Below, one piece after another: positions 28,029-53,448 of a stretch of DNA of 64,000 bases. This DNA comes from Hamadaea flava (lineage in GTDB: Bacteria > Actinomycetota > Actinomycetes > Mycobacteriales > Micromonosporaceae). Location of the stretch: positions 3,038,001-3,102,000 of the forward strand of contig NZ_JAMZDZ010000001.1 in NCBI RefSeq assembly GCF_024172085.1, read 5' to 3'. The position numbers and the translations under genes are program-made. The number at the start of each line of letters is the position of its first letter. The stretch's first letter is position 1. The notes under the pieces were generated by a model, which ran no database searches, was not told the origin of the DNA, and saw nothing but the letters and a program-made list of their open reading frames with translations.

Positions 28029-28100
28029 TGACCAACTCGTGAAACCGGATCAGCTCGTGAAGCCTGACCGACTCATGAAGCCGGATCAGCTCGTGAAGCC
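28029..28100. repeat. 18-bp tandem repeat (4 copies) starting at a stop codon
   Basis: The units at 28029, 28047, 28065 and 28083 alternate between two subtypes (copies 2 and 4 are identical: GGATCAGCTCGTGAAGCC). Read leftward, the last copy contains the final codons and the TGA (28086-28088) of the DUF1345 gene. The array therefore looks like serial duplication of that gene's 3' end into the spacer. Confidence 0.9.
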
Positions 28101-28730
28101 GGACGCCACGAGGTTGATCGTGGTCGCCAGGATGACCGTGCCGAACACGTAGGACAGCAGCGTGTGCCGCAACACGACGGCCCGGATGCGGGGGCTCGCC
28201 ACGTCGGTGTCGGAGACCTGGTAGGTCATCCCGAGGTTGTAACTGAAGTACAGGAAGTCGCGGAACGTCGGCTCGGCCGCGGAGTTGAAGTCGATCCCGC
28301 GCGCGTTCCGCGTGTAGTAGAGGTGCGCGTACCGCGCGCTGTACATGAGATGCAGGCTGGCCCAGGCCATGAACACCCCGGCGAGCGCCACCGCGGCGGC
28401 CGCGTGCCGGTCGGTGCTCCGCGACTCGCCGATCATCAGCAGCACGACGATCGCGGCGAGCCCGCCCAGCGCGGCCAGCACGACGACGAGTTCGTCCGGC
28501 ACGGGCTTGAAGTCCTCCCGGGCCATGTTGCGGCGGGTGGTCGCGGCGTCCATCGGCCACAGCACCAGCCAGCCCGCCACGACGAACAGCGCACCGGCGA
28601 CGGCGACGCCGGCCAGCACGCCCATCGACGCGGTGGTGAGCACGCCGACGACGACCCCGGCCACCGCTCCGAGCACGACCGCCACGAGCAGTCGCCTGGT
28701 CGCGGCCAGCGGGAGCAGCCGCGAGGCCAT
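28086..28730 (-). CDS. DUF1345 membrane protein
   Basis: This 214-residue protein has five to six membrane helices and the DUF1345 signature [13 protein letters not shown] followed by [17 protein letters not shown] (about residues 130-175). Function is unknown. ATG 28728-28730 was chosen since the upstream extension is Pro-rich and not family-like. It lies upstream of and co-oriented with the FdhF/YdeP-type gene, with a tandem repeat that includes its stop codon between them. Confidence 0.9.
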
Positions 28731-28855
28731 GATTCGTACGGTACCGCCGGGCGGCCTCGCCGGGGCCGGGAACGACACCCTATGGCTGGCCATACCACCG
28801 AAGACGCCTGGTGGCCGTGTCGGTTACGGGCCCCGGCCCTGACAAGATCATGATC

Positions 28856-29587
28856 ATGACAACAACCCCCGTCGTCGAGCTGACCGACGTACGCCGCACC
28901 TACCGAAGCGGCGACACCACCACCCGCGCCCTCGACGGCGTGTCCCTGTCCTTCGCGGCCGCCACGTTCACCGCGGTCATGGGCCCGTCCGGCTCCGGCA
29001 AGTCGACGCTGCTGCAATGCGCGGCCGGGCTCGATCGAGCCGACGCCGGCCGGGTACGCCTGGCCGGACAGGAACTGGGTGCGCTCCGTGAGCCGCGGCT
29101 CACCGTGATCCGCCGTCAGCACACCGGGTTCGTCTTCCAGGCGTACAACTTGATCGATGCTTTGACGGTCGAGCAGAATGTGCTGCTCCCGCAGCGGTTG
29201 TGCGGCGTGCGCCCGGATCGCGCGTGGGCGCGCGAGGTGCTGGCCAAGGTCGGTCTGGCCGGCCGGGAGGACGCGCGGCCGGCGCAGCTGTCGGGCGGGC
29301 AGCGGCAGCGCGTGGCGTTGGCCCGCGCGCTGGCCGGGCGGCCCGCGGTGATCTTCGCCGACGAGCCGACCGGCGCCCTGGACCTGCAGTCGGGCCGCGA
29401 GGTGCTGGCGCTGCTGCGCTCGGTGGTCGACGAGTACGCCACCGCGGTGATCATGGTGACCCACGATCCCGCCGCCGCGGCGTGGGCTGACCGGGCCGTG
29501 ATCCTGGCCGACGGCCGGATCGTCCGCGACCTGCCGGAGCCGACCGCCGAGCTGATCGCGACCGAGATGATGGCGGTGACCAAGTGA
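28856..29587 (+). CDS. ABC transporter ATP-binding protein (MacB/LolD type)
   Basis: This 243-residue ATPase has Walker A GPSGSGKST (near residue 42), a Q-loop FVFQAYNLID, the signature LSGGQRQRV, Walker B AVIFADEPTGALD and H-loop MVTHD. The NLID/ALT pattern and TGALD belong to the MacB/LolD/FtsE-like group that energises FtsX-type permeases. It is coupled to the following permease by a GTGA overlap. A second ATG at 28850 is possible. Confidence 0.95.
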   Translation: MTTTPVVELTDVRRTYRSGDTTTRALDGVSLSFAAATFTAVMGPSGSGKSTLLQCAAGLDRADAGRVRLAGQELGALREPRLTVIRRQHTGFVFQAYNLIDALTVEQNVLLPQRLCGVRPDRAWAREVLAKVGLAGREDARPAQLSGGQRQRVALARALAGRPAVIFADEPTGALDLQSGREVLALLRSVVDEYATAVIMVTHDPAAAAWADRAVILADGRIVRDLPEPTAELIATEMMAVTK

Positions 29588-32073
29588 TCCGGCTCGCGCT
29601 CGCCGGGCTGCGCAGCCGCCTGGCCGCCTTCCTCGGCACGTTCGTGGCCGCCGTCCTCGCGGTGGCCCTCATCGGCGGCGCGGCGTTGCTGCTGTTCTCC
29701 GTGCTGACCGCCAGCCCCACGACGCACCGGTTCGACGCGGCCGATCTCATGGTCGGCGGCGACCGCCAGGTCAGCCTGACCACCGTCAAGGACAAGGGAA
29801 AGGGCAAGCAGAAGACGAAGACCAAGACCGAGCGGCTCGCCGGTGCGCCCGCCCTACCCGCCGACTGGGCCGGCAAGGTGGCCGCGCTGCAGGGAGTCAC
29901 GAAGGTGTCGGCCGATTACGCCTTCCCGATCGCACTGACCACAATGGATGGAAAGCCGGCCGGTGACGCCGTAGGGCACGGCTGGGCCAGCGCCGCTCTC
30001 ATGCCGTTCACCCTCCAGACCGGCACGGCGCCCGCGTCCGGGCAGATCGCCGTCGACCCGTCGCTCGGCCTGCACCCCGGCGACCAGCTCCTGATGGTCA
30101 GCCGGACCGGGTCGCACCGAGTGGTCGTGTCGGGTGTGCTGGCCCAGCGGCTCGACGAGCAGCGGGCCGTGTTCGTCGCGGACTCCCAGGTCTCGGCGGT
30201 CTCCGGGCTGACCGGCCCGACGGCGTACGCGGTCACCGGCTCGGCGACCGCGGACTCGGTCGAGGCGGCGCTGGGCGTCGACACCGTCTACGAAGGACAG
30301 GACAAGGTCCGGGCGGACCTGCCCACCGCGCTGCCCGACTACATCGGGGCGATCTCCATCTTCGGCTTCGTCATCGGCATCACCTCGTTCGCCACGGTGT
30401 TCGTGCTCACCGGCACGGTCGCCCTCACGGTGCGGCAGCGGCTGCGCGAGCTGGCGTTGCTGCGGGCGACCGGTGCGACGCCGCGCCAGTTGTGGCGGTT
30501 GCTGAGTGCCGAGACTCTGTTCGTCACGCTCGTCGCGGCACTCGTCGGCGGTCCGCTCAGCGTCGTGGCCGCCGAGGTCATCGCCGCCCGGTTCCGGACG
30601 CTGGGTGCGGTGCCGCCACAGTTCACGGTGAGCGTCAACGTCGGCGTCCTGCTGGCCGCGATCGCGGTCACCGTCCTGGTCGCTCAGCTCAGCGCCCGGG
30701 TGGCGGCCCGCCGGGCGATCCGGATCGCCCCCGCCCAGGCTCTGCAGGAGACCCTCGTCGAAGGCCGGACCGGCTGGGTGTTCCGTACGCTGACCGCCGT
30801 GGTCTGCGCCACGGGCGCGCTCGTCATCCTCGCGGTCGTGCCGCTGGACGGCCCGTTCGGCATGGGCATGACGTTCATCTCCAGCGCCCTGCTGCTGAGC
30901 GCGGTCGGCGCGGCCGGTCCGCTGCTGGTCGGGCTGCTCGGGGGGCTGCTGTCCCGGCTGGCCGGGCTGACCGGCATCGCGGGCTGGCTGGCCGGCGCGT
31001 TCACCCGGGCCGAGAACCGCCGCGTCACCTCGGTCGCGGTCCCGCTGGCCCTGATGGTCGCCGTCAACGCCCCGATGCTGCTCAACAGCGCACTGTCGGC
31101 CGATCTCGCGGCCGCTCAGGAAGCGCGGCGTACGGCGTCGGCCTCGGTCGCGACCGGCGTGCTGCCGCTGTCGGCCTTGCCCGACGACGGCGACTACGCG
31201 GCACTGCTTCCGTCGCGGCTGATCGTCGACGAGGGCGGCAAGCCTGAGGACTACGCGGCTTATGGCATCCAGCAGCACGGAAAGCCGGTCCTGGACCTGG
31301 GCTTCACTGCTGGCACTCTGCCCGATGGCGCCGGTCCGACCGGCAGCGTCGCTTCGAACGGGCTGGCGTCGGCTTCGAACGGGCTGGCGTCGGCTTCGAA
31401 CGGCTTGGCGTCGGCTTCGAACGGCTTGGCGGCCAGCGAGTATCTGGCGCGGGCCAACGGGTGGCAGGTCGGCGACACCGTCCGGGTCTGGCTGCCCGAC
31501 GGGTACGCGACCGAGCTGAAGCTGACCGGCGTCTTCGCGAACAACCGTGGCTTCGGCGAGCTGCTCGCCCCGGCCGATCTCGTCGCGGCGCACGATCCTC
31601 GCGGGGTGGTGACCTCGGTCGTCTTCCACGGTTCGCTGGCGCTCGATGGCATGCACGTCGTCCCGCCGCAGGCGGAGGCGTCGGGTGACGCCGACGAACG
31701 GCAGGGCGCCTGGGAGATCATGATCGCGGTCTCCCTCGGCTTCACCGCGATCGCGGTGGTCAACACGTTCGCGGTGGCCGCGGCGGCTCGCCGCGCGCAG
31801 CTGGCCCAACTGCGGCTGCTCGGCGCGACTCCCGGGCAGATCCGCCGGATGACCGCCCGCGAAGCCGTCCTGACCGTAGCCGTCGGGCTCACGCTGGGCA
31901 TCGCGGTCACCACCGTCGTGGTCGCGGCGTTCAGCTCCGCCCAGGACGGGACGCTGCGGCTGATCGTCGACCCGGCCGCGTACGGGGGTCTGCTCGCCGT
32001 GGTCGGCCTGCTCGGCCTAGCCGCCGGCACCCTACCCGCACGTCTAGTCCTCCGCTCCGTCCGCCCCATCTGA
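29584..32073 (+). CDS. FtsX-like ABC transporter permease
   Basis: This 829-residue permease has an N-terminal helix, an extracellular domain with a Lys-rich KGKGKQKTKTKTER segment, and two FtsX-type four-helix units (about residues 255-385 and 715-825). The RELALLRATGATPRQLWRLL and QLAQLRLLGATPGQIRRM coupling motifs are clear. Periplasmic-side residues 589-616 contain four tandem copies of ASNGLAS encoded by 21-bp repeats. Together with the ATPase it likely exports or extracts a lipid or peptide (for example antimicrobial peptides). The downstream two-component system probably controls it. Confidence 0.93.
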   Translation: MIRLALAGLRSRLAAFLGTFVAAVLAVALIGGAALLLFSVLTASPTTHRFDAADLMVGGDRQVSLTTVKDKGKGKQKTKTKTERLAGAPALPADWAGKVAALQGVTKVSADYAFPIALTTMDGKPAGDAVGHGWASAALMPFTLQTGTAPASGQIAVDPSLGLHPGDQLLMVSRTGSHRVVVSGVLAQRLDEQRAVFVADSQVSAVSGLTGPTAYAVTGSATADSVEAALGVDTVYEGQDKVRADLPTALPDYIGAISIFGFVIGITSFATVFVLTGTVALTVRQRLRELALLRATGATPRQLWRLLSAETLFVTLVAALVGGPLSVVAAEVIAARFRTLGAVPPQFTVSVNVGVLLAAIAVTVLVAQLSARVAARRAIRIAPAQALQETLVEGRTGWVFRTLTAVVCATGALVILAVVPLDGPFGMGMTFISSALLLSAVGAAGPLLVGLLGGLLSRLAGLTGIAGWLAGAFTRAENRRVTSVAVPLALMVAVNAPMLLNSALSADLAAAQEARRTASASVATGVLPLSALPDDGDYAALLPSRLIVDEGGKPEDYAAYGIQQHGKPVLDLGFTAGTLPDGAGPTGSVASNGLASASNGLASASNGLASASNGLAASEYLARANGWQVGDTVRVWLPDGYATELKLTGVFANNRGFGELLAPADLVAAHDPRGVVTSVVFHGSLALDGMHVVPPQAEASGDADERQGAWEIMIAVSLGFTAIAVVNTFAVAAAARRAQLAQLRLLGATPGQIRRMTAREAVLTVAVGLTLGIAVTTVVVAAFSSAQDGTLRLIVDPAAYGGLLAVVGLLGLAAGTLPARLVLRSVRPI
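31351..31434 (+). repeat. 21-bp in-frame coding repeat (4 copies)
   Basis: Four consecutive copies of GCTTCGAACGGGCTGGCGTC(G), at 31351, 31372, 31393 and 31414, encode the ASNGLAS heptad repeat in the permease. The copies differ at only a few positions, implying recent expansion. Confidence 0.9.
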
Positions 32074-32080
32074 GAGAGGT

Positions 32081-32156
32081 GTGATCAAATGCGCCGGCCA
32101 CGTCGTTTCGACGGACGATTCGCCGCCCGAAGCAACATGGCCGGCGCAATGATCAC
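32081..32156. promoter_or_regulatory. Long hairpin covering the histidine-kinase start
   Basis: The arm at 32081-32100 pairs with 32138-32156 (19 pairs, one bulge), and an inner CGTCG-TTT-CGACG hairpin lies at 32101-32113. Both candidate ATGs for the histidine kinase (32089 and 32149) fall inside the arms. It may act as a transcription terminator or attenuator after the ABC genes, or as a structure that hides the kinase start. Confidence 0.7.
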
Positions 32157-34046: not shown

Positions 34047-34089
34047 GGCCTGGCCTGGGCTGGCCGGCTCGGGCCGGTCATGGGCCGTG

Positions 34090-36160: not shown

Positions 36161-36208
36161 CCTCTGCCTCTGCTGACCTCTGCCTCTTCTGACCTCTGCC
36201 TCTTCTGA
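36161..36208. repeat. 16-bp tandem repeat (3 copies) in divergent spacer
   Basis: CCTCTGCCTCTTCTGA (36177 and 36193) and CCTCTGCCTCTGCTGA (36161) are exact 16-bp tandem units. They lie between the divergent STAS gene and the OmpR-type regulator and begin 22 bp upstream of the STAS start. Confidence 0.85.
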
Positions 36209-36342
36209 CGCTCCGACCTTGGGAAACGGATGTGGCGACCCCGGCCCCAAACCATGACAGTCTCGTGACAAACCGCCGATCAGGTCTCATACGCCCGCTT
36301 CGGCGTTGGTCAGCGGCGCGACCGGTGGGCATGATGGCCCGC

Positions 36343-39696: not shown

Positions 39697-40200
39697 GTGT
39701 CCGATTTCACCCAGCTCAGCAGTGCGTTCGCGTTGCTCCGCGGCGGCGTGCTCGTCCGCGACACCGACGCCGAGATCCTCAGAAGCGACCCGTCCAGCGT
39801 CATCACGCTGCTCGCCGACGCTGAAGCGACCGGCGGCGTCCTCACCAGCCACCGCACCACCCTGCGGGACGGCACACCGGGCACCCCGCCGCACTTCCAC
39901 GCCAACTGCGACGAGCTGTTCTTCGTCATCGACGGCCGGCTGCGCGTCCTGCTCGGCCAGGAGATCCTCACGCTGGACGAGGGCGATCTCCTGCTCGTGC
40001 CGCCCTACATGCCCCATGCGTACGCACCGGCGCCCGGCCACGACGCCGACTTCCTGTGCGTCTTCACCCCCGGTACGCCGCGCGCCGACTACTTCCGCCT
40101 GCTCGACCGAGTCCACGCCGGCGAGGCGAGCTGGGACGATCTGCTCCAAGCCCAGGAGCTGTACGACACCCATTACGTACCCACGGAACTCTGGCCATGA
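39697..40200 (+). CDS. Cupin-domain protein (quercetin dioxygenase-like)
   Basis: This 167-residue single cupin has motif 1 G(T)PPHFHANCDELFFVIDG (metal-ligand His-His-Glu) and motif 2 LDEGDLLLVPPYMPHAY (His). Such proteins are dioxygenases, isomerases or simple binders; the substrate is unknown. GTG 39697 has GGAGG 6 bases upstream. It is first in a two-gene operon under the divergent TetR, and its stop overlaps the next gene (ATGA). Confidence 0.9.
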   Translation: MSDFTQLSSAFALLRGGVLVRDTDAEILRSDPSSVITLLADAEATGGVLTSHRTTLRDGTPGTPPHFHANCDELFFVIDGRLRVLLGQEILTLDEGDLLLVPPYMPHAYAPAPGHDADFLCVFTPGTPRADYFRLLDRVHAGEASWDDLLQAQELYDTHYVPTELWP

Positions 40201-40652
40201 GCGGAGCGCCGCCGGCCCCGTTGAGCGACGAGCAGGCCGCTCAGCTCCTCGACGGCCAACGGTTCGGCATCCTGGCCAGCGTCAAGCGGGACGGCCACCC
40301 GCATCTGTCCACAGTGCTCTACCGATGGAGCGCCCCTGAACGGATGATCCGCGTGTCGTCCACCGCCGACCGCCTCAAAGTCCGCCAACTCCGGCGCGAT
40401 CCGCGGACCGCCCTGCACGTCACCGGCCCCACCGTCTGGTCGTACGCCGTCGCCGAAGGCGAAGCAGAAGTCTCCCCACCCTCCGCCGAACCCGGCGACG
40501 CGGTCGGACGGGAACTGCTGGCGATGACGCCTGGCTTCGCCGATCCCGCCGCCGAGCAGCAATTCCTCCAGCAGCTCGTGGCCGACCGGCGAGTCGTCAT
40601 CCGCATCCGAGTGTCCCGCCTCTACGGAGCCGCCCTAGACATCGCCTCCTGA
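40197..40652 (+). CDS. PPOX-class flavin/F420-dependent oxidoreductase
   Basis: This 151-residue split-barrel protein has LLDGQRFGILASVKRDGHPHLSTVLYRW, then KVRQLRRDPRTALHV and VVIRIRVSRLYG. This is the pattern of actinobacterial PPOX-class (Rv1155-like) F420- or FMN-dependent reductases. It probably reduces an enone or an electrophile handled by the same operon. ATG 40197 is coupled to the cupin. Its 3' end is duplicated in a tandem array. Confidence 0.9.
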   Translation: MSGAPPAPLSDEQAAQLLDGQRFGILASVKRDGHPHLSTVLYRWSAPERMIRVSSTADRLKVRQLRRDPRTALHVTGPTVWSYAVAEGEAEVSPPSAEPGDAVGRELLAMTPGFADPAAEQQFLQQLVADRRVVIRIRVSRLYGAALDIAS

Positions 40653-40702
40653 TCACACCGCCTCCTGATCACACCGCCTCCTGATCACATCGCCTCCTGA
40701 TC
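40643..40702. repeat. 16-bp tandem repeat (3.75 copies) including PPOX stop codon
   Basis: The units start at 40643, 40659, 40675 and 40691 (CGCCTCCTGATCACAC). The TGA of the PPOX gene (40650-40652) lies in the first unit. Copies 1 and 2 are identical. Confidence 0.9.
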
Positions 40703-40746
40703 GCGATGTGGCACACCCGTCGGTGAGCGGCGGACCCTCGCCGAGG

Positions 40747-40872
40747 CGCAAATCTTCGCAGCCACGCAAATGTTCGCAGCCACGCAAATGTTCGCAGCGA
40801 CGCAAATGTTCGCAGCGACGCAAATGTTCGCAGCCACGCAAATGCTGGCAGCGACGCAAATGCTGGCAGCGA
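40747..40872. repeat. 18-bp tandem repeat (7 copies)
   Basis: Seven exact-period units (40747, 40765, 40783, 40801, 40819, 40837, 40855) follow the consensus CGCAAATGTTCGCAGCCA, with variants at a few positions. They lie between the PPOX gene end and the 3' end of the DUF222-HNH gene (40993). The period keeps a six-codon phase, but I see no convincing gene through it. Confidence 0.9.
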
Positions 40873-40992
40873 TGCAAGCCGTCGCGGGAACGGCGACGAA
40901 TACGCGGTAGGACCCTGTCGTCGTACCGCGATCACGCTGCGGCGGCCGGAGCAGGGCGGGCCGGCGCAGGCCCGCCCGCAACAACACCGATC

Positions 40993-42534
40993 TCAGCATC
41001 TTCGGCGGAGGGTGTTCCGCACCGGTCTTCGAAGCGGGTCGACGAAGGCGGGCGGGAGGAACTCGGGAAAGCCATCGGGTCTCATCCGGACTTCCCAATG
41101 CCCGTGGTGGATCTCGCGATGGTGGAAGCCACAAAGCAGGACGCTGTTGGCGAGGCAGGTGGTTCCGCCGTCTGCCCAAGCCTTGAGGTGGTGGCCGTGG
41201 CACCACTGGGGTGGCCGGTCGCAACCGGGGAACGCGCATCCCTTGTCCCGCAACACCAGCGCACGCCGAAGCGGGCCGTCGATCAGCCTGCGGGCGCGGC
41301 CGACGTCGAGCACTTGCCCGTCACCGCCGAGCACGGCCGGGATGATCATCGCGTCGCACGCGAGCCGTCGCACGGTCTCCGGGGTGAGCAGGTCGCCGGT
41401 GTCGAGCAAGCCCGCGCCGACCTTGGCTTGGAGGGCGTCCCAGGGCAGGGTGATCGTCAGGTGAGGTTTCTCGCCGCCGTTGTCGGGCAGCTCGCCAGCG
41501 TTCATGATCCGCTGGCACACCTCGACCAGGGCGTCAGCCCGCCGGGCGCCGGCCGAACGCAGATCCGGCTCACCCGGCAGCACCCGACCCGACGCACGAT
41601 CGCCCTCTACCGCATCCGCACCGCCGGCACCCGCACCGCCCCCAATGCGCGCAGCCTCCGCCAGCACAGCCCGCAACACCGCCACTAGCACAGCCGGCAA
41701 CACCGCCTCGTGTATCCGCGCCGACGTCAGCGCAGCCCGCACGGCCGCAAGCGCAGCCCGCAACACCGCTGCCGCCAGCGCCGGGGCCATCGTTAGGGGA
41801 GCAAGCGGCACAATTGCCCGTGGCATCGGGCAGTGCGGCAGCCGCAGCGGTGGGTGCGGGCTTGCGTGGTCCGGACAACGGATCCAACGCGGTCCGCACG
41901 ATCGCAGCCATCTCGGAATCGAGGACACCGCGCACCGGTATTCCCCCTCCCCATAGGGAACGAGGGTGAAGTCACGCCGGTCGTAGGCGGATCGTTCGGC
42001 GCGTTCCAGATCGCGGCGCAGGCGTTCCAAGGCGATCTCCGGTGCGACCAGTTCCAGGATCTGCGACCGATGATTCTCCAGCGTCTCCGGTCGCAGCCGA
42101 TCCTCGACCGCCAGCTTCGTCAACGCCTGGTCGGCTTTCGCCTTACCCACCTCACCCACGGCTGAGGGCAGGTCGTGCACGGTTTTGGTGATCACCCGCG
42201 CCTGCTCGACAGTGACCCGCCCGGCGGCGAGCGCTTCCTCGACCACGGGCGTCTCGGGCAGCAGCTTGGCCAGCTTGGTCCACACGACGGCATCGCGATG
42301 CCGCATGGCCAGCAGATAGGTCAGCCAGTTCGCGGTGCCGGTCGCACCTGCGGTGTAGGGGATCTCGCGACTGTCCGCCGCGCCGATCAACGTGAGTAGC
42401 CGGGCCGACAGCTGCTGGATCGTCGCATGAACTCGGCGGACTTCGTCGGTGATCTCGGTGTCCGAAAGTGTCCACAGGGGACCGGCGACCAGCTCGGCGA
42501 CATCCGCCTCCACCTGCGCCAACAGCCCGCCCAT
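40993..42534 (-). CDS. DUF222/HNH endonuclease protein with internally shifted frame
   Basis: This 513-residue ORF has a typical DUF222 N-terminal half (residues 1-175) and a C-terminal HNH nuclease (GCDRPPQWCHGHHLKAWADGG, LLCGFHHREIHHG). From about 41936 the homologous sequence (VRGVLDSEMAAIVRTALDPLSGPR) lies in another frame. A one-base deletion at CG-GTG (41935-41938) seems to shift the main frame into a non-homologous Cys/Ala-rich segment until about 41600, where normal sequence resumes. The intervening DNA is repetitive. The gene may be non-functional. Such proteins are abundant in actinobacteria and often linked to mobile DNA. ATG 42532-42534 was used. Confidence 0.75.
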   Translation of the reverse strand: MGGLLAQVEADVAELVAGPLWTLSDTEITDEVRRVHATIQQLSARLLTLIGAADSREIPYTAGATGTANWLTYLLAMRHRDAVVWTKLAKLLPETPVVEEALAAGRVTVEQARVITKTVHDLPSAVGEVGKAKADQALTKLAVEDRLRPETLENHRSQILELVAPEIALERLRRDLERAERSAYDRRDFTLVPYGEGEYRCAVSSIPRWLRSCGPRWIRCPDHASPHPPLRLPHCPMPRAIVPLAPLTMAPALAAAVLRAALAAVRAALTSARIHEAVLPAVLVAVLRAVLAEAARIGGGAGAGGADAVEGDRASGRVLPGEPDLRSAGARRADALVEVCQRIMNAGELPDNGGEKPHLTITLPWDALQAKVGAGLLDTGDLLTPETVRRLACDAMIIPAVLGGDGQVLDVGRARRLIDGPLRRALVLRDKGCAFPGCDRPPQWCHGHHLKAWADGGTTCLANSVLLCGFHHREIHHGHWEVRMRPDGFPEFLPPAFVDPLRRPVRNTLRRRC

Positions 42535-42791
42535 GGGATCAACGTTAGAACGAAGGTACGACACCTTCCAGGGGGTCAAGGTCACCAGAATGTGCCACGT
42601 TCACCACCCAGTCAGTCCACAAGCGACAAACGCCGTAGTGCGCCCATGATCTGCGGTTTCGTGTCGGACTCCGTGATCATGCGCCTGTCGTATACGCGAA
42701 ACGGCCCTTGAGCGCACACCATCGGAGCATGATCTTGCTACTCGGCCGGAAATCACACACCACGGGTGCACAGACCACCAAAGAGCTGGAC

Positions 42792-42908
42792 CTGCGAGCA
42801 GCGGGCGATAACGAACAGCCGGTCCGCGTGAGCAGCCGGATCCAGCGAGCAGCACGACTCAGCGAGCAGCAACGCTCGGCAAAACACAGGAATCAGCGAG
42901 CGGCTGGC
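42792..42908. repeat. 17-bp degenerate tandem repeat (about 7 units) at the amidohydrolase 3' end
   Basis: Units of exactly 17 bp start at 42792, 42809, 42826, 42843, 42860, 42877 and 42894, with a shared CGAGCAGC core in most. The amidohydrolase stop codon (TGA, 42893-42895, leftward) lies at the junction of the last two units. The rest of the spacer to 42534 shows no gene I can support. Confidence 0.75.
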
Positions 42909-44104
42909 GCGCCGAGGGCGCGGCGTCCCAGGTCGGCGGCGGAGGCGCGGAGGGCGGCGAGGTCGACGTCGACGAGCCGGCCGGAACGCTTCACGACGCG
43001 GCCGTCGACGATGACCGTGTCCACGTCGGAGGGCCGTAGGGACGTTACCGCCGCACCGGCGCAGTCGGCGCTTCCGGCGAGGTGGGTGAGCCCCTCAAGG
43101 AGAACCAGGTCGGCTCGTTTGCCGACGGCGATCGTGCCGATCCGGTCGCTCAGGCCGAGCGCCCGTGCCCCGTCTACCGTGGCCGCTTCGAGCATGCGCG
43201 CAGCCGGAAGCATCGGCGCGGACGCGCTCGGGACGGCGCGCGTACGCTCGGCTCGTAGGGTCGCCCGCATGACCTCGAAGAGGTCCGGCACGGAGTTGAC
43301 CACCACGTCGACGCCGAGTGCGGGTCGGCAGCCCGCGTCGGCGAGCCGGCCGTACGCCGAGACCCCGTGGCCCATGAGCTCTTCGACCAGCGGCGTCACG
43401 GTGACTCCGGCACCGGTGTCGGCGAGGAGCTTGGCCTCGTCGGCGGTCACGGAGTTCAGGTGGACCAGATGCACACCGGGGCCGAGCAGGCCAGCTTCGT
43501 CCATTCGCGACACTGCTGACGGCGTACGCCCGCCGCCGATGTGCATCGTCACGAGGATGCCCAGGTCCCGCGCCCGGCGCAGGAGTGCCTCGGCTTCGTC
43601 GGCTGGGCCGTATTCCGGGCCGAGGATGGCGAGCGCTGCGCTGAGCGTACCCGTGAGATCTGCGCGGGGCTGGTCGCTCGCGATGACCGCGCGCATCCCC
43701 AGGCTTTGGTACGCGTCAGCCACCGCCTCGGCGTGACTGGTGTTGTTCCAGTCCAGGACGGTCGTGATGCCCGCGTCGAGCGCCTCCGCGGCGCCGAGCC
43801 GGACGGCGAGGTGCGTGTCCTCCGGCCGGTACGCGGACAGTGCACGGCCGAGGACGACCTCGAAGTAGCCGGGCAGGGTCAGGTCGGGGCCGATGCCGCG
43901 CAGGGGCGCCTGCCAGACGTGGCGGTGCGTGTCGACGAATCCAGGGATGAGCACCTGGCCCGTGGCGTCGATGACCTCAGCGCCCGGCGCGGCTAAGTTC
44001 GGGGCGACGGCGGCGATCTCGCCGTCGCGGACGAGGACGTCGGTGGCGAGCAGTTCGGGCGCGCCGTCACCGGGCACCACGTGGGCGTTCTTGAGAAGCA
44101 GCAC
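42893..44104 (-). CDS. Amidohydrolase (ATZ/TRZ, cytosine-deaminase-like)
   Basis: This 403-residue metal-dependent hydrolase has the metal motif HxH in [11 protein letters not shown], a further His in [11 protein letters not shown] and VHLVHLNS, and Asp in [10 protein letters not shown]. The N-terminal composite beta domain and C-terminal [14 protein letters not shown] are typical of the AtzB/TrzF/deaminase group. The substrate is likely an N-heterocycle (inference). The start codon lies 81 bp from the divergent MarR gene, with an inverted-repeat operator between. Confidence 0.92.
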
Positions 44105-44112
44105 GATAATAC

Positions 44113-44136
44113 CTTTCGAGAAAGCTTTTCTGAAAG
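44113..44136. promoter_or_regulatory. MarR operator candidate
   Basis: Two adjacent elements, CTTTCGAGAAAG (44113-44124) and CTTTTCTGAAAG (44125-44136), together form a 24-bp imperfect palindrome centred on AAGCTT (18 of 24 positions symmetric). It lies between the divergent amidohydrolase and MarR genes. Confidence 0.7.
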
Positions 44137-44184
44137 ATACTTCATGATCGGACCGGGCCGCAACCCTCCACTACCATCGAGGGC

Positions 44185-44682
44185 GTGAGCAGGGACTCCA
44201 CGGACGAGATCGCCGCGGCCTGGGCGCAGGAGCTGCCCGGCGTCGTCGGCGAAGAGCTGGAGCTGGCCAAGCGGGCCGCCCGGCTCGCGGCGATCCTCGG
44301 CGACAAGGTCAACGCCGAACTGGCCCGGCTCGGCCTGACCAAAGCCGAGTACGAGATCCTCGCGGTGCTGCGTGCGTCCGGCTCCCCCTATCGGCTGCGA
44401 CCGTCCGATCTGGCCACTCGGCTCATGCTGTCCTCGGGCGGCACGAGCAACCTGGTACGCCGGCTCACCGAGGCGAAACTGCTCGACCGCGAAGCCGACC
44501 CGGCCGACGCCCGCAGCTCCTGGGTACGCCTGACGAAACCGGGCGTCCAGCTTTCGGAGGAAGCCGTACGCGCGGCGACCGCCGCCCAGGCGACAGCACT
44601 GGCGGCCGTGCCGGAGCCCGATCGGAAAGCGGCGATCGCTGCGCTTCGGCAGGTGCTGCTGGCGCTCGGCGACCGGCCATAA
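44185..44682 (+). CDS. MarR-family transcriptional regulator
   Basis: This 165-residue protein has a winged helix at about 55-130 (LTKAEYEILAVLRASG, LRPSDLATRLMLSSGGTSNLVRRLTEAKLL, READPADARSSWVRLT), with helical dimerisation ends. The start is GTG 44185. It is divergent from the amidohydrolase and probably represses it, sensing its substrate. The stop codon region is duplicated 30 bp downstream (44669-44689 and 44699-44719). Confidence 0.93.
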   Translation: MSRDSTDEIAAAWAQELPGVVGEELELAKRAARLAAILGDKVNAELARLGLTKAEYEILAVLRASGSPYRLRPSDLATRLMLSSGGTSNLVRRLTEAKLLDREADPADARSSWVRLTKPGVQLSEEAVRAATAAQATALAAVPEPDRKAAIAALRQVLLALGDRP

Positions 44683-44719
44683 GCCGCCGCCAGGAGCAGG
44701 CGACCGGCCTTATGCCGCC
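44669..44719. repeat. 30-bp tandem duplication spanning a stop codon
   Basis: GGCGACCGGCC(A/T)TA(A/T)GCCGCC occurs at 44669-44689 and 44699-44719. The first copy contains the MarR gene's TAA (44680-44682). A further related CCAGGAGC word occurs at 44690-44697 and 44731-44738. Confidence 0.75.
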
Positions 44720-44746
44720 AGCGCCACCTGCCAGGAGCGGCCGGCA

Positions 44747-45304
44747 CTAGGCCGTGGGCGCCACTTGCCGGTAGAGCATGTTGCCCGGCGACGCGGGGTC
44801 GTCGCTGGTGTAGAAGTCGCGGATGGCGTCCAGCACTTCGAGGACGGAGAGCCGGCCGTCGCCGTCGGCGTCGACGGCGGTGAACGCGCCGGTGATGTCG
44901 TCGACCGACGACCCGATGGCGTGCCACAGCCGGGCCAGCTCGGCCGGGACGAGGTAGCCGTCGTTGTCGGTGTCGGCGAGCCGGATCGTGGCGAGCGCCA
45001 TCGGCGTGTAGACGGCGGCGAACTTCTCGCCGTCGATGAACGCGCCTTGGAAGGCCGCGCCGAACTCCTCTCGCGTCATGCGCCCGTCACTGGGTACGCC
45101 CGCGTGTGCGGACAGGCAGTCCCAGTACCAGCCGTAGAGGGCGACGGTCTCCCGCCCACGGGCGGTGGAGGTCTCCTGGCCGAACGCGCTGAGGACGCGC
45201 CCGGCCTGGTGCAGGATCGCGGTGCGGTCGATCGCGCCGCGCCGGGCGAGGTCGATCTGGTCGAAAGCGGCATCCAATTTGGGGGATAGCGGCGTTTTCT
45301 CCAT
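44747..45304 (-). CDS. EF-hand calcium-binding protein (calerythrin-like)
   Basis: This 185-residue protein has four EF-hand positions. Two loops are canonical: DTDNDGYLVPAEL and DADGDGRLSVLEV (about residues 110-122 and 142-154). The first (DLARRGAIDRTAIL) and second (PSDGRMTREEF) are weak. It is similar in size and layout to actinomycete calerythrin/sarcoplasmic-type calcium-binding proteins, which act as cytoplasmic Ca2+ buffers or sensors. It seems monocistronic. Confidence 0.9.
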   Translation of the reverse strand: MEKTPLSPKLDAAFDQIDLARRGAIDRTAILHQAGRVLSAFGQETSTARGRETVALYGWYWDCLSAHAGVPSDGRMTREEFGAAFQGAFIDGEKFAAVYTPMALATIRLADTDNDGYLVPAELARLWHAIGSSVDDITGAFTAVDADGDGRLSVLEVLDAIRDFYTSDDPASPGNMLYRQVAPTA

Positions 45305-46518: not shown

Positions 46519-46631
46519 GCCGCGCAGCGTACGCGGCCGGGGCACGCCCAGCCGCCAGGTGGGCCACTGCGTGTGGACGGGCCGGTGTCACGGGTTTCGT
46601 CGGACCGGGGCGGCCGGGCATTATCTGCGAC

Positions 46632-47213
46632 ATGGCGTACGACCAGGATCCGCCGACGCAGATGCTGCCGACCACCCAACCGGGACGGCACGCCGCCGAA
46701 GGCTCGTCCAACCGGTGGCTCTTCGGCGTGATCGGCGGGGCCGCCGTCCTGGCGATCGTCCTGGGCATCCTCACCGGGCTGCTGCTGTCGGGCGGCACAC
46801 CGGAGCCGAAGCAGCCGGTCGCCGGGCCGACCGTCGCCGCCGAGCCCACCGAAGAGGAAGTGCTGGAGCCGACTCCGGAGGCCACGGAGATCTCGCCGTC
46901 GCCGACCCGCAAGCCGTCGCCGACCCCGGCCAAGAAGACGGCCGCGCAGCTCATCGCGGCCGCCCGCGACCTGGTCGCGTCGTATGACCGGGCCGATCGC
47001 ATCGACGGCGAGGCGGCGGACACCCTCGACGGCGATCTGCGTGACCTGGCCCGGGACGCGGCCAGCGGCCGAAACCGGCGGGCGTGGAGCGACCTGACCG
47101 ACGCGGCCCGGCATCTGACGCGCTTCCACCAAGAGGATCAGATCGGCGACCGCGAATATCAGGCGCTCAACGCGGCGCTCTCCGAGATCGCCAAGGTCCT
47201 CCCCCGCAACTGA
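46632..47213 (+). CDS. Single-pass membrane protein with Pro/Thr linker and helical extracellular domain
   Basis: This 193-residue protein has a cytoplasmic N-terminus of about 27 residues, one membrane helix (WLFGVIGGAAVLAIVLGILT) and a Pro/Glu/Thr-rich linker (about 55-100). A helical C-terminal domain (TAAQLIAAARDLVASYDRADRIDGEAADTLDGDL) resembles FIMAH/FIVAR-like bundles. Function is unknown. Its stop codon lies in a 13-bp tandem array. Confidence 0.8.
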   Translation: MAYDQDPPTQMLPTTQPGRHAAEGSSNRWLFGVIGGAAVLAIVLGILTGLLLSGGTPEPKQPVAGPTVAAEPTEEEVLEPTPEATEISPSPTRKPSPTPAKKTAAQLIAAARDLVASYDRADRIDGEAADTLDGDLRDLARDAASGRNRRAWSDLTDAARHLTRFHQEDQIGDREYQALNAALSEIAKVLPRN

Positions 47214-47296
47214 CGCAGGCGACTGAGACAGGCGACTGAGACAGGCAACTGAGACAGGCAACTGAGACAGGCAATGGGGCAGGCGAGTGAGGCAGG
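47207..47296. repeat. 13-bp tandem repeat (7 units) starting at a stop codon
   Basis: The units CAACTGACGCAGG (47207), CGACTGAGACAGG (47220, 47233), CAACTGAGACAGG (47246, 47259) and two degenerate copies to 47296 follow one another directly. The TGA of the preceding gene (47211-47213) lies in the first unit. The array ends 12 bp before the stop of the convergent ankyrin gene. Confidence 0.9.
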
Positions 47297-47308
47297 CCGA
47301 CCGGCAGC

Positions 47309-49697: not shown

Positions 49698-49740
49698 GAT
49701 CCAACCCTACGGCCGCGCCGAACGCCGCCATCAACCATTC

Positions 49741-49760
49741 GATGGATGCCGCGATCCATC
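49741..49760. promoter_or_regulatory. Inverted repeat upstream of the kinase operon
   Basis: GATGGAT (49741-49747) and ATCCATC (49754-49760) form a perfect 7-bp inverted repeat with a 6-bp spacer. It lies 44 bp upstream of the leftward kinase gene and is a possible binding site for the LuxR-type regulator. Confidence 0.55.
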
Positions 49761-49856
49761 TACCGCCGCAGGTGGGGCCGCCCTTTCCCGGCAAGACTCG
49801 AATCCGTCGGCCGGACGTTCCGCCGGACCGGCCGCTCGAAACAGGCACTGGAAAGC

Positions 49857-49970
49857 CAGCCCGAAGTCAGCCGCTGCGAAGTCAGTCGCTCGGAGTCAGT
49901 CGCTCGGAGTCAGCCGCTCGGAGTCAGCCGCTCGGAGTCAGCCGCTCGGAGTCAGTCGCTCGGAGTCAGT
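49857..49970. repeat. 14-bp tandem repeat (8 units) upstream of the HbpS-like gene
   Basis: Six near-identical 14-bp units CGCTCGGAGTCAG(C/T) start at 49887, 49901, 49915, 49929, 49943 and 49957, preceded by two degenerate copies (about 49857-49886). The array ends 20 bp before the ATG of the secreted haem-binding protein gene, so it lies in its leader or promoter. Confidence 0.9.
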
Positions 49971-49990
49971 CGTTCGAAAGGAATGGGATC

Positions 49991-50527
49991 ATGCAGATTA
50001 GCCGTCGTCTCGCCCTCACCGTCGGAGCAGGCGCGCTGACCGCCGCCGGAGCCCTCGGCATCGCACTGCCGGCCAGCACCGCCGCGGCCGTCACCGCCGT
50101 CCCCGCCGTGTCCGTCCGGTCCACCGTCGAAGTGCGTACGCTGACCGACGACGCCGTCCTGCGCGCCGCGCAGGCCGCTCTCTCCGCCGCGACGAAGGAC
50201 GGCCAGAAGGTCTCCGTAGTCGTGATGGACCGCTCCGGCGTCGTCCGGCTGGCCCTCCACAGCACCGGCGCCGGCCCGCAGACCGACGAGTCAGCCGAGC
50301 GCAAGGCGTTCACCGCCGTGTCGTTCGGTCAGCCCACCTCGGCGCTCGCCGGCCGAGCCGGGGGCACCGGACCGTCCATCCGCGACATCCCCGGCACGTT
50401 GTTCCTGGGTGGCGGGGTTCCCGTGGTCGTCGACGGTACGCCGATCGCCGCCATCGGCGTGGGCGGGGCGCCCAGTGGCGACCTGGACGAGAAGTACGCC
50501 GCCGCCGGCGCCGCCGCGCTCCGCTGA
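49991..50527 (+). CDS. HbpS/GlcG-like secreted haem-binding protein (DUF336)
   Basis: This 178-residue protein has a signal peptide with a twin Arg (MQISRRLALTVGAGALTAAG..ALPASTAAA). A full HbpS/GlcG fold follows (ALSAATKDGQKVSVVVMDRSGVVRLALHSTGA, KAFTAVSF, LFLGGGVPVVVDGTPIAAIGVGGAPSG). Streptomyces HbpS is an extracellular haem-degrading octamer that signals iron or redox stress to SenS-SenR. Here the kinase-regulator operon is divergent. A GAAAGGAA ribosome site precedes ATG 49991. Confidence 0.92.
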   Translation: MQISRRLALTVGAGALTAAGALGIALPASTAAAVTAVPAVSVRSTVEVRTLTDDAVLRAAQAALSAATKDGQKVSVVVMDRSGVVRLALHSTGAGPQTDESAERKAFTAVSFGQPTSALAGRAGGTGPSIRDIPGTLFLGGGVPVVVDGTPIAAIGVGGAPSGDLDEKYAAAGAAALR

Positions 50528-50603
50528 CCCCCTCACCCCCGCCGCGCGCTTCGCTAGGCGCTGACCCCCGCTCCCCGCTCGGCGCTGGCGCTGGCGCGCT
50601 GAA

Positions 50604-50670
50604 GGCAGCAGATCACGGATATGCATGCGATCTTGGCCAAAGATTCCATGCATATCCGTGATCTGCCGCC
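50604..50670. terminator. Bidirectional long-stem hairpin
   Basis: The arm at 50604-50627 pairs with 50647-50670 (24 pairs, one mismatch), with a 19-base loop. It lies between the convergent haem-binding protein and deformylase genes. The arm CAGATCACGGATATGCA differs by one base from that of the hairpin at 4005-4060. Confidence 0.85.
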
Positions 50671-50679
50671 AAAACCCTG

Positions 50680-50747
50680 CCGCGAAAGCCGGGCCGCGAG
50701 CCGGGCCGCGAAAGCCGGGCCGCGAAAGCCGGGCCGCGAGAGCCCGA
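50680..50747. repeat. 14-bp tandem repeat (5 units) at the deformylase 3' end
   Basis: The units CCGCGAAAGCCGGG (50680, 50706, 50720), a 12-bp variant (50694) and a degenerate last copy (50734) end 7 bp before the deformylase stop (50754, leftward). Confidence 0.85.
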
Positions 50748-50753
50748 CAGGGG

Positions 50754-51332
50754 TCAAGCAGTGAGCCAGGAGGGGTCGTCGCGGCGATGGTCCAGGTAGT
50801 TCTGGACGGTCGTGAGGCTCGCCATCGATCTCATCCGGTCGACGAACTCGTGCCCGTCGAGGTGGTCGACCTCGTGCTGGACGACGCGGGCGGCGTACCC
50901 GGTGAATTCCTGGTTCACGACCGTGCCGTCTCGTCCGGCGAAGGTGACCACGACCGAGAACGACCGGGGCACCACCCCCATGATCCCCGGTACGCTGAAG
51001 CACCCTTCCCAGCCCAGCACGTCGGCCGGGGTGCGCTGCACGATCACGGGGTTGATCATCTCGACGAGCGGCGTCTCGGGCCGGTCGGGGAAGACGTCGG
51101 TCTTGCGTACTTCGACGATGACGGCGCGGGCGGAGACGCCGACCTGCGGGGCGGCCAGGCCGGCGCCGTTCAGCGATCGCAGTCGCGTGACCATCGCGTC
51201 CAGCAGGTCGTGGGCCTCCGACGGCGGGTCGATCGCCGCGACGGGCACCTTCAGCCGGGGGTCGCCGATGGTGACCAGTCCTTCGCCGGCGAGGCCGGAC
51301 ATCCAGGCACGGTCACTCTTGGCCAAGCTCAT
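50754..51332 (-). CDS. def: Peptide deformylase
   Basis: This 192-residue metalloenzyme removes the formyl group from nascent proteins. All three motifs are intact: I GAGLAAPQVG, II EGCFSVPG (Cys ligand), III QHEVDHLDG (HExxH). ATG 51330-51332 was chosen because it overlaps the TGA of the upstream HTH-TPR gene (ATGA), implying coupling. Actinobacteria often have several deformylase paralogues; control of one by a dedicated regulator is unusual. Confidence 0.94.
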   Translation of the reverse strand: MSLAKSDRAWMSGLAGEGLVTIGDPRLKVPVAAIDPPSEAHDLLDAMVTRLRSLNGAGLAAPQVGVSARAVIVEVRKTDVFPDRPETPLVEMINPVIVQRTPADVLGWEGCFSVPGIMGVVPRSFSVVVTFAGRDGTVVNQEFTGYAARVVQHEVDHLDGHEFVDRMRSMASLTTVQNYLDHRRDDPSWLTA

Positions 51333-52669
51333 CTCGCGGCTCCCCAAGGTACGTACTGCCGTCGGCATCGCTCCACATTGTCGTCGAGCTGTCGGATGAG
51401 CGTCTCATAGTCGGGTATTCCCCGCAGCGAGGCGAGGCCGAAGTCCGCTTCGCGGCGAAGCAGCTGCACGGACAGGAAACCCAGGTCGATCGCGGCGCGC
51501 AGGCACGACAGCGCCGGCTCGGTCTGCCCCAGTTCCGCGTACACGTGGGCCAGTCGATAGATGATGTAGCCGTTCGTGGGGTGGGCGGCCCGCAGGTCGT
51601 CGGCCAGGCGGCGGGCCGTCTCCCGCTGTCCGGCGGCCGCGTGGATGTTCGCGAGCCACGCGGCGGTCCGGCTGTTCGGCTCGGTCGCGCCGAGCCGGTC
51701 CAGTGCTTCCGCCCAGGTCCCGGGGCTCAGGTAACCCAGGAGCGTCCACACTGTCACGTCCTCGGGATCGGCCGCCACGGCTTCGCGGGCCACTCGCGCC
51801 GCGAGGTCCCCGCTGCCTTCCCAGTGGTACGCCGCCAGCGCGACCGCCCAGCGTGTGTTCGCGTCGGTGGGGTGACCGGGCAGGTACGCGCTCGCGGTCT
51901 CGACCGCGTCGGCGGAGCGGCCGAGCAGCATCAGGCACCAGATCCGCAGCTTCTGGGCGGCGAGGTCGGTGGGGTCGGCCGCGAGCACCGAGTCGACCAG
52001 CGGAAGCGCGACGTCGGCGAGCCCGGCGTTGGTCAGCGCGCGGGCAAACGCGACCGAGGCGTCGAGGCTGTCGGGGTGCCGGGTGTAGACCGAGCGGCCG
52101 GCCCGCAGGGCGTGCTCGTGCCAGCCCATGTCCCAGCAGGCGCGGATGAAGGTGATCTGGGCGATGACCGAACCGGGGTCCGCTTCGAGGGCCGCCTCGA
52201 CGTCCCGGAGTGCGCGTTGCAGGGCCTCGCCGGAGTCCGACCAGCCCGCGAAGTACTTCCGCCATCGGGTGTAGCCGCGGGCCGCGATGGCCCCCGCGAA
52301 CGTCGGATCGTGATGGACCGCCCGTTCGAGCAGCGCCTCGGCCGCCCCGATGCCCTCCCGGTCGCCGTGCGCCAGCAAGCCGTACCCACGCCGGTACAAC
52401 TCCCGTGACGGTTCGTCCTCGAAGGACAGCGTTCGGGCCGGCGGCAGGCCCGGGGCGTACGCCGAAGGCGGGCCGCTGAGCAGGTCGGCGAGGTCCTCGA
52501 CGGGCAGCTGCAGCGCCTTGGCCAGCCGGGGCCGATGCCACGGCTGGGGTTCGGTCTCGCCGGACTCCCACCGGAGGACGGTGGTCCGGTCGACGCCGAG
52601 TTCTGCGGCCAGATCCTCCTGACTGAACCCCATCATCTTGCGACGTTCGGCCAACGCGCGGCGCTTCAC
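51329..52669 (-). CDS. XRE-family HTH regulator with TPR domain
   Basis: This 446-residue protein has an N-terminal HTH (residues 5-60; RRKMMGFSQEDLAAELGVDRTTVLRWESGE) and at least seven TPR-like helical repeats (about 95-410; for example AIAARGYTRWRKYF, DVEAALEADPGSV, ALAAYHWEGSGDLA, RLAHVYAELGQTEPALSCLRAAIDLGF). XRE-TPR proteins typically bind a peptide or partner through the TPR groove to control DNA binding. It is the first gene of an operon with a peptide deformylase. The gene begins at ATG 52667-52669. Confidence 0.92.
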   Translation of the reverse strand: MKRRALAERRKMMGFSQEDLAAELGVDRTTVLRWESGETEPQPWHRPRLAKALQLPVEDLADLLSGPPSAYAPGLPPARTLSFEDEPSRELYRRGYGLLAHGDREGIGAAEALLERAVHHDPTFAGAIAARGYTRWRKYFAGWSDSGEALQRALRDVEAALEADPGSVIAQITFIRACWDMGWHEHALRAGRSVYTRHPDSLDASVAFARALTNAGLADVALPLVDSVLAADPTDLAAQKLRIWCLMLLGRSADAVETASAYLPGHPTDANTRWAVALAAYHWEGSGDLAARVAREAVAADPEDVTVWTLLGYLSPGTWAEALDRLGATEPNSRTAAWLANIHAAAGQRETARRLADDLRAAHPTNGYIIYRLAHVYAELGQTEPALSCLRAAIDLGFLSVQLLRREADFGLASLRGIPDYETLIRQLDDNVERCRRQYVPWGAAR

Positions 52670-52800
52670 CCCTCACCCCCAACCGTCTTGCATATTTACG
52701 CAGATCAGGACACCCCGTGCAACGGGGATGCCACCTTTCTGCCACGTTGTCACCGTGTCGGTGGGCCGGCGTACCTGGTTGGCTGGTCACCGTGACACCG

Positions 52801-52848
52801 GGCAAGACGACTGGCAAGACGACTGGCAACACGACTGGCAGGACACCG
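52801..52848 (+). repeat. 12-bp tandem repeat (4 copies) upstream of hypothetical gene
   Basis: GGCAAGACGACT occurs twice (52801, 52813), followed by GGCAACACGACT (52825) and GGCAGGACACCG (52837). It directly precedes the ribosome site of the gene at 52858. If translation began at the upstream GTG 52792 the array would encode GKTT repeats. Confidence 0.8.
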
Positions 52849-52857
52849 GAGGACGTC

Positions 52858-53172
52858 GTGCGGGAGCCCTCGGCCTTGGAGGTTGTGGTCCGCCTCGGCT
52901 CGGAGGCGATCATCCGGACCGACACCGAGGACGGCGGCCCGCCGATGCTGTGGGTCAGATCCGGGCTGATGGAGATCATGTTGACCCCGTTCGCCGCCAG
53001 CGAAGGCGGCGAGCTCACGAAGGCGGATCTCGAACTGGCCTCCGACCTGGTCGTGGCGGTCGTCGCGTACCGGGACGCGATCTACGACCACCTCGTGAGC
53101 ACGGGCGCCGTCCAGAAGCCGGTGACCCGCCGGATGCGCCGCCCGCGCGGTCACCCGACCCCCGACGCTTGA
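52858..53172 (+). CDS. Hypothetical protein
   Basis: This 104-residue protein (REPSALEVVVRLGSEAIIRTDTEDGG..) has an alpha/beta pattern and a helical C-terminal half (LELASDLVVAVVAYRDAIYDHL). GTG 52858 was chosen since GGAGGA lies 4 bases upstream and all upstream starts run through a tandem repeat. It is divergent from the HTH-TPR regulator by about 190 bp. The family is not recognised. Confidence 0.7.
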   Translation: MREPSALEVVVRLGSEAIIRTDTEDGGPPMLWVRSGLMEIMLTPFAASEGGELTKADLELASDLVVAVVAYRDAIYDHLVSTGAVQKPVTRRMRRPRGHPTPDA

Positions 53173-53231
53173 CGTCACCCGTAGGGCCCGATCGCACTCC
53201 ACGTGCGGGTGATCTCCCCCTCACTGGCCGT

Positions 53232-53247
53232 CCGAACCGCGGTTCGG
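53232..53247. promoter_or_regulatory. 16-bp perfect palindrome CCGAACCGCGGTTCGG
   Basis: A perfect palindrome in the 260-bp spacer between the hypothetical gene (end 53172) and the metallophosphoesterase (end 53433). It could be an operator or the hairpin of the preceding transcript. It heads a small non-coding cassette (hairpin at 53264-53281, mini-ORF at 53305, terminator at 53328). Confidence 0.5.
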
Positions 53248-53289
53248 GGTCGTTGGCCTCGCGGGACGGAACCGGCCGTCCGTCGCATC

Positions 53290-53316
53290 AGGAGGAGGTT
53301 GACGATGCCGGCCTAA
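53290..53316 (+). other. Three-codon mini-ORF with strong Shine-Dalgarno
   Basis: AGGAGGAGG (53290-53298) lies 6 bases before ATG CCG GCC TAA (53305-53316), which encodes only Met-Pro-Ala. A hairpin terminator follows at once. The spacing is ideal for ribosome binding, but the product would be a tripeptide. It may be a ribosome-binding decoy or a leader element. It is recorded as seen; no function is claimed. Confidence 0.5.
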
Positions 53317-53327
53317 GGCTGACTCGC

Positions 53328-53355
53328 CCGGGCGCCCCACGGACAGGGCGCCCGG
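53328..53355. terminator. 10-bp GC-rich hairpin terminator
   Basis: CCGGGCGCCC (53328-53337) pairs perfectly with GGGCGCCCGG (53346-53355) around an 8-base loop, just downstream of the mini-ORF. Confidence 0.7.
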
Positions 53356-53384
53356 CTCTCCCGCCCGACGGGCCGGATCTCCCG

Positions 53385-53448
53385 TCAGGCCGGCGCTCCA
53401 TCAGGTCGGCGTTCCGTCAGGCCGGCGTTCCGTCAGGCCGGCTCTGGT
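53385..53448. repeat. 16-bp tandem repeat (4 copies) anchored on a stop codon
   Basis: The units at 53385, 53401, 53417 and 53433 follow TCAGGCCGGCGTTCCG. The fourth unit contains the end of the metallophosphoesterase gene, its TGA (TCA on this strand) being the first three bases (53433-53435). Confidence 0.9.

Follow-up and report, generated by a model that had tools for sequence, protein, structure and literature searches.

Tandem repeats that reach into stop codons have been described in other bacteria. Among the VNTRs of Yersinia pestis, 84% of units are 7–21 bp long, 48 of the 88 loci are intergenic, and 24 of the 88 lie in ORFs and have units divisible by three (PMC3689786). In the same survey, 10 of the 88 loci contain a stop codon and 6 a start codon, one of these being a CRISPR. 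It also reports lower VNTR diversity near 5' ends, ascribed to purifying selection, and a low diversity of the stop-overlapping VNTRs, interpreted by its authors as a possible sign of constraint (PMC3689786). For the TAACTGA repeat of Beggiatoaceae, 13 sets are recorded as overlapping an upstream stop codon (PMC4679880). In Mycobacterium tuberculosis, a repeat region starts 40 bp after the rnc stop, and its length is correlated with how strongly the following gene, Mtb-fpg1, is expressed (PMC2734929). Satellites of prokaryotes have been surveyed more generally (PMC6749651). The DNA analyzed here, a window of 64,000 nucleotides (G000:C1:3038001-3102000, within a single 8.86 Mb contig; array coordinates are given in window numbering), carries a series of short tandem arrays at gene 3' ends, which the initial annotation did not recognize as a described system. 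In kind, however, such loci have a precedent in the Y. pestis VNTRs tabulated with a stop codon in the unit (PMC3689786). We consider it probable that the arrays are ordinary, locus-specific, VNTR-like minisatellites, made by slippage and retained at the sites of weakest selection.

Arrays were detected by TRF, with periods up to 500 in the window and up to 60 in the genome scans, and those with a score of at least 60 formed the main set. According to TRF, reading of the sequence and gene calls, four of the arrays that had been placed on gene 3' ends indeed lie over stop codons. An 18/36-bp array at 28028-28104 (TRF score 126) covers the stop (28086-28088) of a DUF1345 gene (28086-28730, minus strand; Pfam PF07077), and a 16-bp array of 4.0 copies at 40639-40702 (score 114) holds in its first unit the stop of a PNPOx gene (40197-40652, plus strand; PF01243). 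The 13/39-bp array at 47206-47297 (scores 108/119) lies over the stop of gene 46632-47213 (plus strand) in a convergent gap, and the 16-bp array of 3.8 copies at 53382-53442 (score 101) over that of a metallophosphoesterase gene (53433-54209, minus strand; Pfam). Two further loci were weak: at 42792-42908 there is a degenerate 17-bp array beside the stop of an amidohydrolase gene (42893-44104, minus strand; PF01979), seen by sequence reading and reported by TRF at 42830-42871 with a score of 56, and at 44669-44719 sequence reading gave an imperfect repeat pair of about 30 bp that covers the stop of a MarR gene (44185-44682, plus strand; PF12802), with no TRF report at score 40. The five gene names given for these loci were all backed by Pfam.

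Three arrays said to begin close to a stop were confirmed by TRF and gene calls at distances of about 6-13 bp. The first, of 15 bp and 2.8 copies at 14102-14143 (score 70), lies 6 bp from the stop of gene 14150-17779 (minus strand). The second, of 15-16 bp at 9807-9848 (score 68), lies in a convergent gap, with the stop of gene 9860-10813 (minus strand) 11 bp away; a weak 13-bp array (score 41) comes next and covers that stop, and together the two span 9807-9874. The third, a 14/40-bp array at 50665-50744 (scores 111-124), lies about 10 bp from the stop of a peptide deformylase gene (50754-51332, minus strand; Pfam). It stands on the opposite side of a palindrome of about 65 bp from a 37-bp array of 2.2 copies (50522-50602, score 97), which adjoins the palindrome and covers the stop of gene 49991-50527 (plus strand). 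An 18-bp array of 7.3 copies at 40747-40877 (score 199) shares the convergent gap of the 40639-40702 array, and its nearest stop is 94 bp away.

The view that one 3' architecture holds throughout was borne out only insofar as 3' ends are favored; it had passed over four arrays of the window, three strong ones at gene starts and one within a gene. The former lie in divergent gaps: 14 bp x 7.4 at 49865-49969 (score 173), 21 bp before a start codon; 12 bp x 3.7 at 52801-52844 (score 74), 13 bp before a start codon; and 16 bp x 3.1 at 36161-36209 (score 91), 22 bp from a start codon. The latter, a 21-bp array of 4.1 copies at 31346-31431 (plus strand; score 137), lies within the called gene 29584-32073. 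At a TRF score of at least 60 the window holds 12 intergenic arrays, of which 5 cover a stop and 8, these 5 included, come no farther than 15 bp from one; the remainder are the one 94 bp from its nearest stop and the three in divergent gaps, each with a start codon 13-22 bp away. The window is unusually rich and thus a favorable sample for arrays, with 12 as compared to about 4 per 64 kb across the rest of the surrounding 1.16 Mb. Array density is locally high at G000:C1:3022001-3214000, where the 64-kb bins overlapping or adjoining the window hold 9, 11 and 8 arrays, as against 1 to 7 in each of the 16 bins that make up the rest of the 1.16 Mb.

The analysis was extended to 1.56 Mb of G000 (the window and further stretches), with genes called by a codon model, and to seven stretches from six other genomes (G001, G003 twice, G004, G006, G013 and G036). 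An array was assigned to a gap when at least 10 of its bases were intergenic. On an annotated 50-kb stretch of a Streptomyces plasmid with 49 annotated features, from which two cut genes, three IS3 transposases and one 126-bp ORF were left out, the caller recovered 42 of 43 stops; it predicted 54 genes there, against an annotation table that is incomplete. The arrays occur far above chance, because a Markov shuffle of G000 intergenic DNA yields at most 0.003 arrays per kb. We also considered that they could be an artefact of assembly or sequencing. No point in support of this was found, and such an origin is extremely improbable: the window lies within one large contig, the arrays listed in 864 kb of G000 are only about 30-275 bp long, arrays inside genes obey a frame rule (see below), and other genomes display a similar distribution of arrays.

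The bias of arrays toward 3' ends is real beyond the window, and their density declines in the order of expected constraint, from convergent through tandem to divergent gaps. In the 1.56 Mb of G000, convergent gaps held 37 arrays in 28.9 kb (1.28/kb), tandem gaps 61 in 85.9 kb (0.71/kb) and divergent gaps 11 in 49.4 kb (0.22/kb), with P values of 2e-8 for convergent versus divergent, 0.007 for convergent versus tandem and 1e-4 for tandem versus divergent. The six other genomes, when pooled, gave 31 arrays (1.33/kb), 49 (0.58/kb) and 11 (0.25/kb), respectively. Individual stretches showed exceptions: tandem and convergent densities were equal in G036 and in G000 at 6.0-6.4 Mb, and in G013 the divergent density slightly exceeded the tandem one. 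The ranking held under stricter thresholds (1.17/0.64/0.21 and 0.82/0.62/0.19 per kb), with a smaller contrast between convergent and tandem gaps. The ratio of about 6:3:1, alike in G000 and in the pooled genomes, could serve to gauge how much each kind of gap tolerates.

The initial annotation had attributed the arrays to a process acting at stop codons. We therefore slid each array at random over the room in which no protein is altered (the "harmless" space), and compared observed with expected placements in 1.56 Mb of G000 and in the six other genomes. The frequency of arrays over a stop in G000 was that of random harmless placement, both in convergent gaps (16 of 37 against 14.4 expected, P 0.32) and in tandem gaps (13 of 60 against 11.7, P 0.39). 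A mild excess appeared at score 60 for arrays no more than 15 bp from a stop: 28 of 37 against 21.1 expected (P 0.003) in convergent gaps of G000, 26 of 60 against 19.1 (P 0.02) in its tandem gaps, and 23 of 31 against 17.5 (P 0.005) in convergent gaps of the other genomes, where arrays over stops in tandem gaps also numbered 9 of 45 against 4.9 expected (P 0.04). None of these near-stop or over-stop excesses was significant with arrays of score 80 or more only, where numbers are smaller. Within tandem gaps of G000, 24 of 61 arrays covered the stop or came within 10 bp of it, as compared with 2 for the start; the corresponding numbers in the other genomes were 13 and 4 of 49, and overall nearness there was even, with 23 arrays nearer the stop and 26 nearer the start. 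The stop codon is thus not clearly an anchor of the arrays, and the occurrence of similarly built arrays within genes and ahead of starts likewise speaks against the proposed process. Stop-spanning arrays need a harmless-placement control of this kind before any mechanism is put forward.

One alternative reading is that the mutational process itself is hotter at gene 3' ends, through transcription termination or converging polymerases, so that duplications start there more often and selection merely trims them. The mild excess near stops favors this reading, as does a similar number of arrays per stop in G000, with 37 for the 412 stops of convergent gaps and 61 for the 602 of tandem gaps. Against it stand the random over-stop placement and the same-build arrays within genes and before starts, and we regard it as unlikely. 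Hairpins, a rough proxy for terminators, also argue against it, being no commoner in gaps with arrays: among gaps of at least 25 bp, they were present in 13 of 33 array-holding versus 87 of 151 array-free convergent gaps, 16 of 54 versus 143 of 479 tandem gaps, and 3 of 11 versus 50 of 247 divergent gaps. Duplication provoked by hairpins was for the same reason not supported as a main driver, at the hairpin threshold used.

Arrays inside genes were about as numerous as those between them (101 and 109, respectively, in the 1.56 Mb of G000). Their period was divisible by 3 in 96 of 101 cases in G000 and in 139 of 147 in the other genomes. The mutation therefore occurs inside genes too, with selection keeping the frame. 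Between genes of G000, 50 of 109 periods were divisible by 3, as compared to 36 expected from one third; one possibility is that this surplus reflects unrecognized coding sequence. Crowding of in-gene arrays toward the 3' end was considered and dropped, as the trend was inconsistent: successive fifths of the gene from 5' to 3' held 11, 18, 10, 18 and 24 arrays (n=81) in one stretch and 6, 5, 5, 2 and 2 (n=20) in the other.

We next compared G000 with a syntenic 65-kb contig of a different species (G003), whose blocks are mostly 80-88% identical and in a few cases near 75%. The comparable stretch has 15 arrays; five (at 40639, 40747, 66269, 74820 and 87236) were dropped for want of both mapped flanks, leaving 10 arrays in nine gaps, in which presence or absence was scored by eye on the gap sequences. 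G003 had none of the 10. A different array was present at two of the nine gaps (31 bp x 3.1 in the 53382 gap and 44 bp x 2.2 in the 78720 gap), and a single unit was left, by eye, at 49865 and 64910. The gap of the 47206-47297 array had no array in G003, the in-gene array 31346-31431 was lacking there as well, and the gap 50527-50753 retained a palindrome and neither of its two arrays. In a further genome, G002, about one unit-like copy was seen by eye at array 36161-36209. These data indicate a fast turnover of arrays between species.

The turnover bears on a further alternative, namely that the arrays are functional elements tuning mRNA 3' ends or the neighboring gene. Their 3'-end location would suit such a role, and so would the correlation of the repeat after rnc with Mtb-fpg1 expression (PMC2734929). 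Nevertheless, we think it very unlikely, given that none of the 10 arrays is shared with G003, that the gap 50527-50753 has there kept a palindrome without either array, and that the units share little sequence outside one separate 40-bp family. A conserved 3' regulatory element was rejected on the same absence and on the different arrays at two of the nine gaps.

Two side observations concern positions 40200-44749 of the window. The PNPOx gene, a DUF222 gene, the amidohydrolase gene and the MarR gene form a block that is absent from the syntenic place in G003, where the alignment jumps from 40200 to 44749; three arrays listed in the initial annotation and the array 40747-40877 fall inside this block. 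The DUF222 gene (40993-42770; PF02720) is multi-copy, with at least nine more full or partial copies in G000 at 79-92% identity.

Divergence of the gaps themselves was examined between G000 and G003. In 30 alignable gaps, array-holding ones included (25 more were unmappable or broken), identity in convergent, tandem and divergent gaps was 0.67, 0.73 and 0.81, and indel events numbered 2.33, 1.39 and 0.94 per 100 bp, respectively. This order of divergence is the one predicted by relaxed constraint. In the 20 gaps free of arrays (5 convergent, 8 tandem and 7 divergent), median identity was 0.76, 0.83 and 0.82, with 2.59, 1.19 and 1.08 indel events per 100 bp; convergent gaps stood apart, and tandem and divergent gaps were alike. 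The skew across convergent, tandem and divergent gaps was steeper for arrays (about 6:3:1) than for indels (about 2.5:1.5:1), so that tolerance may not account for the size of the 3' bias. Since, in addition, tandem and divergent gaps free of arrays diverge alike in spite of a threefold difference in array density between the two classes, 3' ends may be a modest true hotspot, in so far as this small sample can tell. Stated in full, gene 3' ends in these actinobacteria would be true hotspots for tandem duplication of 10-60 bp beyond relaxed selection, tied to transcription termination or head-on transcription, with arrays surviving there also because a stop-holding unit leaves the protein intact. 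We hold this to be doubtful, and prefer the explanation by ordinary slippage and selection, which does without a special process.

The statement that unit sequence differs from locus to locus was upheld. Among the 109 array units of G000, 13 pairs matched at E<=0.01, as compared with 1 in a shuffled control. Eight of the 13 pairs fall within one family of five 40-41 bp arrays, none of which lies in the window; the other five matches are short, and one of them involves the window array 50522-50602. A shared unit motif was accordingly rejected, as those five short matches are all that remains outside the 40-bp family. MIRUs share one sequence, and a MIRU-like dispersed repeat was discarded as well, since only the five arrays of the 109 form a family. 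The units of the window arrays are contiguous, with no unique spacers between them, and a CRISPR array was likewise rejected.

Several palindromes were noticed as well. A dispersed 21-bp palindrome, GATCGTCGGCNGCCGACGATC (L056; G000:C1:3364370 and 3373647-3373829), is often arrayed at 40-41 bp or multiples thereof with variable DNA between. Allowing up to one mismatch, it has 57 sites in G000, 29 in G002 and 43 in G003; a search of G001 and 27 other genomes gave no site, and a backwards control gave none. These arrays could be REP-like or protein-binding arrays. In addition, two palindrome families with members about 65 bp long are represented in the window (50600-50672, and 14060-14104 by eye). 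The 1.56 Mb contain 19 sites of one and 17 of the other; 34 of the 36 sites lie between genes, and 1 of the 36 in a divergent gap. In the gap 50527-50753, G000 carries one of these families and G003 the other, between the same flanking genes.

The origin of the arrays was approached through their junctions, using clean two-copy arrays (period at least 15, fewer than 2.8 copies) from all sampled genomes. Junction homology of at least 3 bp was found in 7 of 14 such intergenic arrays, as compared with 7% of simulated blunt duplications (P 2.5e-5), the simulation being built from G000 intergenic DNA with the periods of a first, looser set, and in 5 of 11 clean two-copy arrays inside genes. Three of the 14, too small a number for a comparison, extend over a stop; their homologies are 0, 1 and 4. 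An initial count of 33 of 44 with at least 3 bp is superseded, as it held short periods favored by the TRF threshold and parts of longer arrays. For about half of the arrays the homology is consistent with strand slippage involving short direct repeats; the other half could be blunt.

We suggest that a short stretch would be duplicated in place through misalignment of the copying strand, partly between short direct repeats, and that the array would then grow by more slippage. Such duplication may be possible anywhere in the genome, and selection would set the visible pattern of period-3 arrays in genes, few arrays before starts and many after stops. A unit containing a stop would be nearly harmless, as translation of the unchanged protein still terminates at the first stop. 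The data themselves show the array distribution, the frame rule, the near-random placement with respect to stops, the fast turnover and junction homology in half of the 14 clean two-copy arrays; that slippage is the enzymatic route and that the 3' arrays are neutral is what we infer. More generally, a recurrent and striking pattern can stem from ordinary mutation filtered by selection.

In comparison with known systems, the arrays have the properties of minisatellites or VNTRs. By TRF and sequence reading, they consist of contiguous head-to-tail units of about 7-60 bp; the unit is specific to its locus and derived from local sequence, as seen in the 13 matching pairs among 109 units and, by eye, in the single units of G003 at 49865 and 64910; their copy number varies between close relatives, as none of the 10 comparable arrays is present in G003, a different species; and inside genes they keep the frame. 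The tandem repeats of archaeal Borg elements have perfect, A-enriched units (PMC9879509), whereas many units here are degenerate. The Beggiatoaceae TAACTGA repeat is a single 7-bp sequence genome-wide and lies mostly upstream of starts (PMC4679880); here the unit varies by locus and arrays favor 3' ends. Like mycobacterial MIRU-VNTRs, the present loci are tandem arrays between actinobacterial genes, but in contrast to MIRUs, a named 40-100 bp repeat scattered at 41 places (PMC2734929), most of them are mutually unrelated. Among the literature matches listed, from a search that most subscription journals fall outside, no paper ranked array density by convergent, tandem and divergent gaps. The closest likeness is to the Y. 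pestis VNTRs, which have short units, stop-overlapping loci and in-ORF units divisible by three as the arrays here do (PMC3689786). That survey typed copy number across strains, whereas species are compared here, and the present analysis adds to it a comparison of gap classes and a test of array placement.
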